From Bacteroidales bacterium (lineage in GTDB: Bacteria > Bacteroidota > Bacteroidia > Bacteroidales > Paludibacteraceae), in NCBI GenBank assembly GCA_015654525.1, contig JAATGT010000319.1, positions 1 to 46,294 of the forward strand: 46,294 nucleotides of DNA. Reading direction: 5' to 3'. Below the pieces are notes generated by a model. That model searched no databases, had not been told where the DNA came from, and was given only the letters and a program-made list of their open reading frames with translations. A program made the translations under genes and the position numbers. Of the stretch, positions 21,730 to 27,328 are shown one piece after another; position 1 is the stretch's first letter, and each line of letters begins with the position of its first letter.

Positions 21730-21820
21730 ACCGGAAAGTGTAAAGAATGATATAGATGGAGGAGTATGCCTAAAGGTATATTCCTCTTTTTGTTTTAAAT
21801 AAGGTGAGGGCGATAAAGTG

Positions 21821-21925
21821 ATAGAAATTAAATAATGTCATATTTTTCAGAGAAGCATTATACGATATGGTTGTAATTTTAAGTCTCCTTTAGGGGGATC
21901 GAAGATCAGCGAAGCTAATTAGGGG
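21821..21925 (-). repeat. 105-bp inverted repeat, copy A (left end of module)
   Basis: Matches the reverse complement of 24088-24191 over its full length with roughly 15-20 differences, from ATAGAAATTAAATAAT at the outer end to AGCGAAGCTAATTAGGGG at the inner end. The inner half is the dispersed repeat also found at 19165. Together the two copies bracket the 21-bp tandem array and the 307-residue protein gene. Confidence 0.75.
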
Positions 21926-22140
21926 TGGTTTTCAACTCTGTTTTTTGCCCCAAGCCGCTAAAGGGGATGTTGAATACCATCACCTCAGAAAATATCGATG
22001 CAAGATTATATGCATTCAATTGTAATGTGGTCGGCTATTTTAAGAAATGCAATCGCAGCTATATGAAAATTATTAACATAAATTTATGAAGAATAGGAAC
22101 GGATAGGGAGGATATGCAAACAGTCGTTAAAGGTATTGAA

Positions 22141-22688
22141 TCGGACTGTTAAGGAAAAGGGTTGGATAGTTAAGGGATTGCATCGGATATGTTAGAAAAA
22201 GGGTAGGAACACGAAGAAATTGGGTAGGAATCATTAATTATGAGGTAGGACAACAAAGAAATAGCCGAAGACTGTTAAGGAAAACGATCGGACAGGCAAG
22301 AAATCGCATCAGACAGTTAAGAGAAAGCATTGGACTGTTAATGAAAAGGGTCGGATAGTAAAGAAATAGGGTCAGACATGTAAGAAATAGGGTTGGACAT
22401 GAAAGAAATAGAAGGAGGCACGAAAGAAATAGGACCGGATATGAAAGAAATAGAATAGGACTTACAAGAAATTGCATCGGACAGTTAAGAGAAAGGGTTG
22501 GACTGTTAATGGAAAGGATTGGGCAGTGAAGAAATCAGGTTAGATACACAAGAAATCGAAGTGAACGTAAAAGAAATAGGAATGGATAGGTAAGAAACTG
22601 AATTAGCTGCTGAAGAAATAGGGTTGGCACTATCCGAAGAAGAATTGAACTGACGAAAAGAAATTGGCGGAAATCAGTAGGAAGAGCC
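22141..22688 (+). repeat. Array of about 26 degenerate 21-bp tandem repeats
   Basis: Units begin TYGGAYA-like and end AAGAAATAGGG-like. Most are exactly 21 bases (two of 20, one of 22, one of 24). The plus strand is strongly purine-rich. A higher order exists: the two-unit segment at 22309-22350 (CAGACAGTTAAGAGAAAGCA...) recurs at 22477-22518, 168 bases or eight units later. Plus-strand frames are full of stops; the minus strand has only a broken heptad-repeat frame, so it is not judged coding. Sequence 21926-22140 and 22689-22935 holds no gene; some half-recognisable units may extend at both edges. Confidence 0.9.
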
Positions 22689-22935
22689 GGATGAGAGCGA
22701 ACACTTTTTTAGTTGCGGAATTGATAAAAGGAATGGACTGTAAGGTAAATAGTAGAAAAAGGATATTTAAAATATATTTAGCAGGAATATTAACGCTAAT
22801 GCAACTAAAGCCCTTGGACCTTACTGATTAATGAATTATCAGTTTACGCTTTATTATGTTCATTAGCTTAACTGTAAACAAATTTTATCAATATCTAAAT
22901 ATTGTAAAAGTATAAAGATTTATCGTAATTATTCA

Positions 22936-22943
22936 TAACTTTG
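22936..22943 (+). promoter_or_regulatory. -7 element of the 307-residue protein gene
   Basis: TAACTTTG is an exact TAnnTTTG match 40 bases before the ATG. The -33 region is AT-rich with no clear TTTG at the right distance. It shows that the gene probably has its own promoter, outside the tandem array. Confidence 0.45.
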
Positions 22944-22983
22944 TTGCGTATTAACATCAGTATAAATTTAAAATCTAAAAAGT

Positions 22984-23907
22984 ATGAACAAAAAACAAAA
23001 CGGCATTTATGCTATGCAAAGACGTGTTTATAATTTTTTCACAAGAAATCTGGAGTTATTAAGCACACTACCCCAATTCCTGACCTTGTATAATTTACTA
23101 GGTACTACAATTTCCCAAATCAACCTCCTGAACGAAGAGCAGGAGAAAGACACGAGTGGGTTAACCAAACAAAAAGAGACTTTAAGAGGAAATGCCTTTA
23201 AAAAGGTGATGAATTTGCAACGACGACTACTGGCATTTGCCACTTTTACGAATAATGATGTGCTGGTAAAACAAATTTCTTATACCGATACGGATCTGTC
23301 GCACTTAACAGATAACAGTTTTCTGAGTGCTTGTTGGGTGATTTATCATGCCGGTGTAACCAATCAGCTGGCAGCTGCCGAATATGAGGTAACACCCGAA
23401 CTGCTTACCGAAGTAAAAACTGCTATTGAGGCATTTGGCACTGTGATAGATACACCTAAAGAGGGACAGATCGAAAAAACACAGACTTCCAGCGAAATGG
23501 GAGATCTGATACAGGAAAATCAGTTTACATTGGGAAAAACCGACCTACTGGTGGATATGCTAAAAGACTCACATCCTAAGATTTACAAAGAATATTACGA
23601 TACACGCAAGGTGGTGAATCGCTCGGGTTCGCTTACGGTGAAAGCACTGGTAACCGACGCTGCAACTAATGTACCGGTGGTAGGTGCTGTGGTGAGTTTC
23701 CGGCTCGACGGAGTGCTGATGTTGGAGAAAACTTCGGCAGAAGCGGGCAGATTCAACGTGAAATCAATGGATGAAGGCAACTACGTGGTGACAACTACCA
23801 AAATGGGTTACCAAACCGACGTACGCGATGTGGTGATAGTGGCCAATGAGCTTAACTCCGTAGCCATCTCGCTGAAAAGACCTGAAGCAAAAAAAACAAA
23901 CGAATAA
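22984..23907 (+). CDS. Unknown protein: helical domain plus carboxypeptidase-regulatory-like domain
   Basis: 307 residues with no signal peptide or membrane helix. Residues 1-210 look all-helical (MQRRVYNFFTRNLELLSTLP, the QINLLNEEQEKDTSGLTKQK charged segment, LRGNAFKKVMNLQRRLLAFA) and match no family I recognise. Residues 214-297 form a beta-sandwich of the carboxypeptidase-regulatory-like type (SLTVKALVTDAATNVPVVGA, then GRFNVKSMDEGNYVVTTTK, MGYQTDV), a fold usually found on secreted or outer-membrane proteins, which is odd without a signal. Its position just after the tandem array and inside the inverted repeats suggests they belong together. A clear terminator follows. The gene is intact and has normal codon use, so it is probably expressed. 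No function is proposed. Confidence 0.85.
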   Translation: MNKKQNGIYAMQRRVYNFFTRNLELLSTLPQFLTLYNLLGTTISQINLLNEEQEKDTSGLTKQKETLRGNAFKKVMNLQRRLLAFATFTNNDVLVKQISYTDTDLSHLTDNSFLSACWVIYHAGVTNQLAAAEYEVTPELLTEVKTAIEAFGTVIDTPKEGQIEKTQTSSEMGDLIQENQFTLGKTDLLVDMLKDSHPKIYKEYYDTRKVVNRSGSLTVKALVTDAATNVPVVGAVVSFRLDGVLMLEKTSAEAGRFNVKSMDEGNYVVTTTKMGYQTDVRDVVIVANELNSVAISLKRPEAKKTNE

Positions 23908-23942
23908 TAAACGGATCTACCCACGGCTAGTAGATTGCGGGT

Positions 23943-23977
23943 AAAATCGGGACGTAAGCGTTTACGTTCCGATTTTT
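23943..23977 (+). terminator. Terminator after the 307-residue protein gene
   Basis: AAAATCGG pairs with CCGATTTT, and the inner ACGTAA/TTTACGT extends the stem; five T residues follow. The remaining part of this ~340-base gap holds repeat copy B and no gene. Confidence 0.8.
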
Positions 23978-24087
23978 ATTTTGAGGATATAAGTAAGCGT
24001 ATATAATGTTCCATTTTTATTTTCAAAGACGATGGTATTTTACATCCTCCTTCAGGGGTTTGGGACGGAAAATACATTTGAAATCTG

Positions 24088-24191
24088 CCCCTAATTAGCT
24101 TCGCTGATCTTCGATTCTCCTAAAGGGGACTTGAAATTACAACCGTAATTGTATAATGCTTCTATGAAAATGCGATATTATTTAATTTCTA
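24088..24191 (+). repeat. 104-bp inverted repeat, copy B (right end of module)
   Basis: Starts CCCCTAATTAGCTTCGCTGA and ends TTTAATTTCTA. It is the inverted partner of 21821-21925; the two lie 2.37 kb apart measured from outer ends. Confidence 0.75.
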
Positions 24192-24250
24192 CTACTTAGC
24201 TATATATTACAGAATAGGAAAAATTATAACTTTAATTCAAATAGAATAGT

Positions 24251-25811: not shown

Positions 25812-26273
25812 ATGGCAAATACATATTCACAAATTTATCTACATTTCGTTTTTGCAGTTCAAAACCGAATGCCTTTAATTAGCCCCAAATGGCAAGCTGA
25901 TTTATATAAATACATGAGTGGGGTTATATCGAATAAAGGTCACAAAGCGTATATTATCAATGGTATGCCAGATCATGTACATGCGCTTGTAAGTATGAGT
26001 CCAAAACACGCACCTTCGGATTTAATGCATGATGTGAAGCAAAGTTCATCGCTATGGATAAATGAAAATCGATTTGTTGCGGGCAAGTTTTCGTGGCAAG
26101 AAGGTTTTGGAGTATTTAGTTACGGAAAGTCTCAGATACCAGATATTGCCGGTTATATTGAAAAACAAGAAGAACATCACAAGAAACGGACATTTATTGA
26201 AGAATATGTAGAATTGTTGAAGTTGTTTGAAATCGAATTTGACGAAAGATACATATATAAACCGATAGAATAG
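25812..26273 (+). CDS. REP-associated tyrosine transposase (RAYT, IS200-like)
   Basis: 153 residues of the Y1 HUH transposase fold. NGMPDHVHALVSM holds the metal-binding His55 and His57; Tyr115 in IAGYIEKQEEHHKKRTF is the probable nucleophile. The start MANTYSQIYLHFVFAVQNR is typical of IS200-like proteins. Unlike IS200, it is not bounded by element ends but lies inside two clusters of short palindromes, the setting described for RAYTs and their REP sequences. It is thought to nick single-stranded DNA at hairpins and spread them. The gene is intact, and its first codons follow the last hairpin by about 12 bases. Confidence 0.88.
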   Translation: MANTYSQIYLHFVFAVQNRMPLISPKWQADLYKYMSGVISNKGHKAYIINGMPDHVHALVSMSPKHAPSDLMHDVKQSSSLWINENRFVAGKFSWQEGFGVFSYGKSQIPDIAGYIEKQEEHHKKRTFIEEYVELLKLFEIEFDERYIYKPIE

Positions 26274-26730: not shown

Positions 26731-26827
26731 GTTATAGTGATCGAAAAGTGATTGGATAATATATTTATAAACAGAATAGCGGAACCGAAAAGCTTATAGA
26801 GTAGGACATAATAATCAATTTTACAAC

Positions 26828-27328
26828 ATGAAAATTTTTACTAAAACAATTGCATTTATTGCTATCGTTATCACTTTCACCAGCTGTGCTTCCATTGTGA
26901 GTTCAAGCAAATGGCCTTTAACTGTAAAGACAACCCCTGCCGGAGCACAAGTGCAGATTATAAACCGACGAGGAATTTCGGTATTCACCGGACAGACTCC
27001 TGCTACATTGTTGCTGAAATCGGGAGCGGGCTTTTTTGCTAACGAATCGTATATGATTAAACTCTCAATGCCCGGTTATGCCGAAAAAACAATCCCGGTA
27101 AGATGTTCGTTGAACGGGTGGTACTTTGGTAATATTATTTTTGGTGGATTAATCGGTTTGTTGATTGTTGACCCGGCAACAGGTGCTATGTACCGGTTGG
27201 ACGTGAACTATATTGACGAACCTTTAACGCCGACAAACACAACAGCCAATAAAGGACAAACACTGAAAATTATGGATATAAATGATTTGTCGCAGGATAT
27301 GCAGAGTCATTTGGTAAGCCTGAAATAA
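26828..27328 (+). CDS. Small lipoprotein with PEGA-like domain
   Basis: 166 residues. The signal ends FTSC (Cys19), so it is a lipoprotein. Residues ~28-95 resemble a PEGA domain (WPLTVKTTPAGAQVQIINRR, TGQTPATLLLKSG, YMIKLSMPGYAEKTIPV). A hydrophobic, glycine-rich segment follows (WYFGNIIFGGLIGLLIVDPA), then MYRLDVNYI and a polar tail. Similar small proteins are frequent in Bacteroidetes and are sometimes annotated as translocation or stress lipoproteins; no function is established. It ends in a strong terminator shared with the convergent MBL gene. Confidence 0.75.
   Translation: MKIFTKTIAFIAIVITFTSCASIVSSSKWPLTVKTTPAGAQVQIINRRGISVFTGQTPATLLLKSGAGFFANESYMIKLSMPGYAEKTIPVRCSLNGWYFGNIIFGGLIGLLIVDPATGAMYRLDVNYIDEPLTPTNTTANKGQTLKIMDINDLSQDMQSHLVSLK

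Follow-up and report, generated by a model that had tools for sequence, protein, structure and literature searches.

Tandem arrays with a 21-bp period upstream of an unnamed family of helical proteins in Bacteroidota

We analysed a contig of 46,294 nucleotides from a Bacteroidales bacterium of the Paludibacteraceae (the window, at its full length) and found a tandem array of 21-bp units upstream of a gene for a 307-residue protein with a predicted helical domain. The association of array and gene is very strong, and the unit is real and widespread, though patchy: when homologous loci were fitted with a cyclic Hidden Markov Model (HMM), 129 out of 162 had a 20–22-bp array upstream of the gene. 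The array period is nearly fixed, but the unit sequence varies along with the protein; in one pair of loci, array and N-terminal protein half both differ. On the best reading of these observations, still a tentative one, each protein would use its N-terminal half to recognise the helically phased array before its own gene; binding is something that we infer from co-inheritance.

The units of the window array (Table 1) stand head-to-tail without spacers. The initial annotation had described about 26 purine-rich 21-bp repeats; 25.5 copies were found, with 72% purine on the + strand. The array threshold was a cyclic-HMM score of 90; the window array scores 276 (219 if a piece border cuts the array), and array-free pieces of the window reach at most 56 (n = 28 pieces). 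As had been described, a 307-residue protein is encoded between the outer repeats and a transposase is not: the gene is the sole open reading frame (ORF) of at least 80 aa there among the window ORFs. The gene had also been credited with its own −7 element and terminator. The former lies in the gap between array and gene, with no −33 element found at the usual distance from it. The latter corresponds to a hairpin for which the scan alone is weak, since the same scan found 1.5 hairpins in shuffles. The description of the gene as of unknown type holds for its larger part, the unnamed helical domain, and fails for the C-terminal third, a CarboxypepD_reg domain. Purine-richness is no family trait, as G exceeds C in 21 out of 39 arrays and A exceeds T in 30 out of 39. 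Further along the window, a DUF805b cis-regulatory RNA (26776–26807; Rfam RF02914) scores exactly at the gathering threshold, and a PEGA-domain gene (26828–27328) lies directly 3′ of it.

Table 1. Features of the array–gene locus, in positions of the window
Feature	Position	Strand	Basis or remark
MITE-like dispersed repeat, copy 1	about 21815–22027	+	outside the array–gene unit; alignment of ten copies
Tandem array	about 22092–22627	+	~25.5 units of 21 bp, consensus AGGATcGGACAgttAAGAAAT
Coding status of array	22092–22627		non-coding; every sense frame has stops (10, 14 and 18)
Bacteroidetes-type −7 element TAACTTTG	22936–22943	+	consensus scan; in the array–gene gap
Gene, 307 aa	22984–23907	+	ATG 22984, stop 23907
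Helical domain of no known family	residues 1–215 of the 307-aa protein	+	Pfam, model
N-terminal half	residues 1–130; 22984–23373	+	by correspondence with L026/L065; from homologues, not the window
CarboxypepD_reg (CnaB/transthyretin-like) domain	residues 218–297; 23635–23874	+	PF13620, E 1.4e-9
Intrinsic terminator-like hairpin	23943–23976	+	15 pairs
MITE-like dispersed repeat, copy 2	about 23990–24198	−	opposite orientation; outside the array–gene unit; alignment of ten copies

The outer repeats do not belong to the array–gene unit. Inverted copies around array and gene, of which 105 bases each had been noted, do exist, as three blocks within 21816–21964 and 24049–24197 that are 83, 84 and 91% complementary; read from the alignment of ten copies, these blocks are the larger part of each of two copies of a ~210-bp MITE-like element. 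The element is dispersed: with 40 of 79 candidates scored, the genome from which the window comes (the source genome) has no fewer than 37 matches, of which two are the window's own pair and another is a 45-bp piece at a different place in the window. In the ten copies aligned with their flanks it is, by eye, ~190–220 bp long with terminal inverted repeats starting TAAGTAAT, and no target-site duplication is evident. Like MITEs, the outer repeats are short, non-coding, bounded by terminal inverted repeats and dispersed in many copies. Ten further contigs carry a full-length gene of the family, and a single one of them (C40) has a match, namely a 40-bp end located at the edge of the contig. That the 105-bp inverted repeats and their contents form a passive composite mobile element, as initially suggested, is highly improbable: two MITE-like copies with terminal inverted repeats do flank the unit in inverted orientation, but the element is dispersed over the matches counted above and no other family locus in the source genome was found between paired copies. 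Of the earlier interpretation, the array–gene unit thus survives and the outer repeats as its boundaries do not; of the two alternatives that it offered, the better one is a self-contained regulatory locus. An IS200-like Y1 transposase gene (25812–26273; PF01797, E 3.3e-27) lies outside the repeats, near the MITE-like copies; such genes can mobilise REP-like repeats.

Array presence of about 80% holds in homologues from 50 genomes. In the first set, from the source genome and its relatives, 39 out of 46 homologues have an upstream array, and the source genome has nine arrays. Arrays were found at 43 out of 60 loci hand-picked for spread among the matches listed in 393 genomes of the order, and at all three loci newly added from named genomes of Prolixibacteraceae and Marinilabiliales. 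In multi-copy genomes 40 out of 49 loci have one (29 out of the 37 that are new once 12 loci already counted are removed), as do 15 out of 16 loci from elsewhere in the phylum, in other orders and at least one further class. Periods of 19–23 bp were fitted in the first set, the hand-picked loci, the named genomes and the array-free window pieces, and of 20–22 bp in the multi-copy and other-order sets and the background described below. We dropped from the counts L010 (76 bp upstream) and seven loci of the multi-copy set with <200 bp upstream, and L339, L351, L362, L363, L125, L136 and L143 were left out of the array scan. No array reaches the threshold at 33 out of 162 loci; nothing was found upstream of L066, L067, L153, L187, L190–L192, L198, L199, L201 and others. 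In the downstream stretches of the first set (mostly ~500 bp), a 21-lag array was seen once, at L069; L355 has arrays both upstream and downstream of the gene. Arrays hold about 8–36 direct repeats and lie at a variable distance from the ATG (60–532 bp, 10–90%).

The background was assessed in 0.8 Mb of one genome, G016, where five helical-domain loci are known from the profile search. Only 2 out of 195 random 1.5-kb pieces away from loci of the family or of DUF6261, a second family described below, pass the threshold (about 1%), and of the full 200 random pieces seven pass, five of which come from loci of one or the other family; among the 40 stretches sampled, two had been chosen for holding family genes. 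This sequence contains 25 tandem-repeat places. Among its 20/21-bp arrays, five stand at loci of the helical family, one precedes a DUF6261 gene by 45 bp, and four are orphans with other genes nearby. One 20/21-bp array stands beside a broken gene without Pfam match, by eye a DUF6261 relative. The other tandem repeats have assorted periods, among them 12, 14, 16, 18, 27, 41, 45, 48 and 51; three places with a 41-bp lag (1113867, 1274801, 1468657) have HMM scores of 45–57 and were not counted as arrays. Neutral minisatellites, arising or surviving by chance next to duplicated gene families prone to recombination, would agree with the existence of orphans and with arrays that are homogenised and fast-changing. 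We nevertheless regard this explanation as quite improbable, because the arrays keep the same side of the gene, the same period and their frequency across 50 genomes, because the association extends to other orders and at least one other class, and because the remaining tandem repeats of G016 have no such common period.

The protein family is unnamed, and its helical domain has no Pfam, NCBIfam or PDB relative. The source genome has 11 full-length copies: the protein has 10 matches there, and a profile search adds the full-length C347 as well as two fragments. The window gene and its paralogues were recovered by profile searches with the helical-domain profiles A1 and A4. The family is patchy, being present in 60 out of 393 genomes of the order and in 13 out of 296 genomes of the phylum (source genome included). 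One 4.4-Mb genome (G142) has 43 family matches, about one gene in a hundred if its gene density is ordinary. Long members (~300 aa) carry the C-terminal CarboxypepD_reg domain and short ones (~228 aa) are the helical domain alone. For this domain of ~215 residues no Pfam or NCBIfam model scored above cut-off in the members scanned; weak matches below cut-off exist, e.g., MobC_2 in L004 (E 0.013). AlphaFold2 models (mean pLDDT 94.5 and 88.2, pTM 0.61 and 0.54) place helices at residues 3–21, 32–53, 58–88, 110–126, 138–154, 157–191 and 198–207, with the beta domain after them. Foldseek partners in the PDB at E ≤ 0.001 were obtained solely for the model that includes the beta domain and, as their names suggest, are mostly due to it; the helical domain alone had no PDB partner, and its sequence profile had no PDB match (best E 0.036). 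By eye, no signal-peptide-like stretch is present at the protein start, and the helical protein is probably cytoplasmic. No DNA-binding domain was recognised in the family proteins, whose mean net charge is about zero. We rejected a phage, plasmid, defence or PHROG link: the window's helical domain had no phage match, the single query used for plasmids (the short member L055) had no match, and in PADLOC and PHROGs no family was matched by more than a single member (best E 0.0026 among 44 members and 0.00038 among 28 members, respectively).

The array period is 21 bp in 100 out of 111 arrays, 22 bp in eight and 20 bp in three. Inner units over 82 arrays measure 21 bp in 985 cases, 22 bp in 97 and 20 bp in 38. 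The smallest whole number of base pairs that gives a whole number of 10.5-bp helical turns is 21, and with such two-turn spacing every copy faces the same side of the DNA. The sequence of the unit changes with the protein. At >50% protein identity, mean unit similarity is 0.483 in the same orientation versus 0.291 for the reverse complement (43 pairs); at <30% identity it is 0.31–0.32 versus 0.30, i.e., at background. Near-identical loci across two genomes (L331/L336 and L344/L348) have units that are 0.99 similar. Paralogues of the same genome mostly differ in unit; close ones may have related units (0.89 for L186/L303, 0.45–0.74 in a group in G356). The near-identical proteins L316 and L319 (95% identity) have clearly different units (0.65), and above 60% identity no clear difference in unit similarity was found between paralogues and orthologues (8 and 15 pairs, means 0.60 and 0.67). 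Where arrays are degenerate, one part of the unit carries most of the conservation (the best 8-mer, chosen after the fact); in L152 this part is GAAAT.

Motif searches across units gave no stable common motif. The LL of a common motif is far above column permutations (z about 8–10); against dinucleotide shuffles z is about 1.4–4.4, with the shuffles higher in two out of six settings, and the motif differed between searches (AATG-like, then TGACA-like). A weak common motif is possible. No two of the 25 most similar units come from the source genome; with no stable motif besides, a single shared sequence-specific reader is unlikely. Unit palindromes are not enriched in the helical family (6 out of 82 vs 4.1 expected). 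We rejected intrinsic DNA curvature as a selected trait, since units are no more bent than shuffled ones (mean percentile 0.49, in a wedge model). A coding array is unsupported as well, because 24 out of 39 arrays, the window's included, have stops in all three sense frames and units of 20 or 22 bp shift the frame; 15 out of 39 arrays do have an open sense frame.

The relation of the array to the N-terminal half is clearest in one pair of loci, L026 and L065 (G011). Their DNA is 92.8% identical along the 278 bp that end at the 5′ border of the array, and identity is again 86–98% from about codon 125 to the end; in between, the arrays are unrelated, and the N-terminal 130 residues are only 52% identical. 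The comparison stops short of the 3′ flank, and G011 is a draft of 930 contigs with one of the genes at a contig edge; assembly error or strain mixture is a possible source of the difference. Over 300 and 205 pairs, which are not independent, the partial rank correlation of unit similarity with the N-half given the C-half is 0.32 and 0.38, and with the C-half given the N-half −0.02 and 0.11. The unit appears to follow the N-half rather than the C-half. Positional linkage alone could give this partial correlation, since the N-half is nearer to the array. We put the odds that the N-half reads its own array lower because the L026/L065 case rests on a draft assembly.

Arrays of this kind also accompany DUF6261 (PF19775), a function-unknown family of Bacteroidales proteins of about 240 aa with 21 matches in the source genome. 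A 20/21-bp array lies upstream of 14 out of 28 DUF6261 loci fitted in the source genome and relatives (30-genome search) and of 10 out of 20 loci in the source genome, three loci being common to both sets. Array-bearing examples are L208:2043–2741 and, in the source genome, L274, L280, L282, L285, L289 and L296. No PF19775 match was found among the helical-family members scanned, and homology between the two families was not detected by hhalign profile–profile comparison (probability 1.4%), so that the array is not bound to a single fold. DUF6261 units are palindromic above chance (6 out of 14 arrays with a score ≥76 vs 0.7 expected), and L253 and L263, with 93% protein identity, have a unit similarity of just 0.55.

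An orphan copy of the window array, 74% identical, occupies L245:2559–2956, between a divergent gene and a tautomerase/acetyltransferase-like pair and before the tautomerase gene, with no family gene among the ORFs listed. Targets elsewhere are not supported: the window array has this one orphan copy and weak matches, and the array of L004 has no second copy elsewhere. Orphan 21-bp arrays in G016 lie upstream of a nitrogenase-component gene (PF00148; L239:17328–17648) and of a probable LytTR regulator gene (L224:919–1120; a 58-aa piece with a match just below cut-off). The orphans and the L245 copy indicate that arrays can move or outlive their gene. Broken genes stand beside intact-looking arrays at L053 and L213:10560–11313, possibly as stages of gene loss that leaves orphan arrays. 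Heptamer-type tandem repeats are present in G016 at L210 and L213 (about 1112275 and 1171437), one of them directly upstream of a MurA-like gene; repeats of this kind have been reported for Paludibacter propionicigenes in a paper cited below.

The presence of arrays at two protein families with no apparent relationship, and at some further genes, is in line with a cis-regulatory array whose reader is some other factor, such as an architectural protein sensing phased repeats, or with a repeat-number contingency locus, the protein being merely the regulated product. Promoters in the array–gene gap and a period that is kept while the sequence is free fit this explanation too. We consider it possible, though doubtful: a unit that follows the protein, and an array and N-half that differ together, are not predicted by it, even if linkage could imitate both, and the units show no excess bending.

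Recognisable promoters appear to lie mostly in the array–gene gap. By consensus scan, a full promoter (TTG-N18-23-TAnnTTTG) is present between array and ATG at 18 out of 82 loci, versus 1.9 (sd 1.2) in the null and 2 on the antisense strand; before the array, it is present at 4 out of 82 loci versus 1.6 (sd 1.2). The −7 elements before the array number 22 sense and 21 antisense (null 13.0, 82 loci), and at 19 out of 82 loci a −7 element stands solely before the array. Arrays with a short gap may lie in the leader instead. The L163 array is inverted relative to its homologues L152 and L167 (55 and 52% protein identity) and has the same GAAAT core, so the strand seems not to matter. These data bear on a type III toxin–antitoxin-like RNA system, in which the array would be transcribed and cut into 21-nt RNAs that restrain the paralogue's protein. 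Such a system matches the array-then-gene layout, the units that differ between paralogues, the excess of A over T on the gene strand in 30 out of 39 arrays, the loci with a −7 element only before the array, and the antisense folds, of which 40% have z below −2 against mononucleotide shuffles. We think it unlikely all the same: −7 elements before the array are equally frequent on the antisense strand, full promoters before the array are hardly in excess and those in the gap strongly enriched, sense-strand RNA folding of the arrays is unremarkable (mean z −0.51), the L163 array is inverted, and the helical protein has no toxin or defence family match.

The mechanism that we tentatively prefer, in which a protein reads its own array through its N-terminal half, would have two parts. 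The first would be a cis-acting DNA element of about 8–36 direct repeats spaced by two helix turns, and the second a helical, probably cytoplasmic protein. The N-terminal half of this protein would recognise its own array, with one protomer or dimer per 21 bp, and the protein would assemble along the array into a phased nucleoprotein array. This assembly might control its own promoter, or might be the address for the C-terminal part, which in the long form would be the CnaB/transthyretin-like domain. Unit and reader changing together would account for many copies with different units per genome. A broader proposal, that N-halves across the phylum read private phased 21-bp arrays in a self-addressing system whose cassettes co-evolve and recombine, and on whose array design the unrelated helical family DUF6261 has converged, is possible, though doubtful. 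The finding matters because a conserved period with free sequence extends across bacterial orders and is tied to two large uncharacterised families. It gives a first handle on families without known function that can fill dozens of loci per genome, and it opens to experiment the question of how a protein and a DNA site present in many copies can diverge in step and yet stay matched. If the broader proposal is true, tens of distinct DNA–protein addresses are possible in one genome.

The array–gene unit is undescribed in the literature searched, mainly open-access journal articles, in which nothing on such 21-bp arrays was found. As for CRISPR, the window array has no spacers and none of the six window genes scanned is a Cas gene. 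Intergenic TAACTGA heptamer repeats, many near start codons and with two sets in P. propionicigenes, are reported in PMC4679880; they have 7-bp units of one fixed sequence, whereas the arrays of the helical family have 21-bp units of free sequence and are linked to a gene family. DUF6261 resembles the helical family in being function-unknown, in its many copies per genome and in its 20/21-bp upstream array; it differs in its PF19775 domain, absent from the helical family, and in its palindromic units. Type III toxin–antitoxin systems (ToxIN and kin) have tandem repeats directly upstream of one gene. The helical family differs from them in repeat length, promoter position and protein fold: the enriched promoter lies in the array–gene gap rather than singly before the repeats (consensus scan), no ToxN/CptN/TenpN-type toxin was matched by Pfam, NCBIfam or PADLOC, and the model is helical. 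In iteron replicons and ParR/parC, a protein binds tandem direct repeats of about two helical turns that adjoin its own gene. The proteins scanned gave no Rep, ParM or ribbon-helix-helix match, and Pfam detected neither a ParM ATPase neighbour nor a ribbon-helix-helix ParR in the six window genes. The likeness to iterons and ParR/parC lies in direct repeats of about two turns that adjoin a gene, whose product would here be the binding protein; the difference is that the helical family has many paralogues per genome, with different units.
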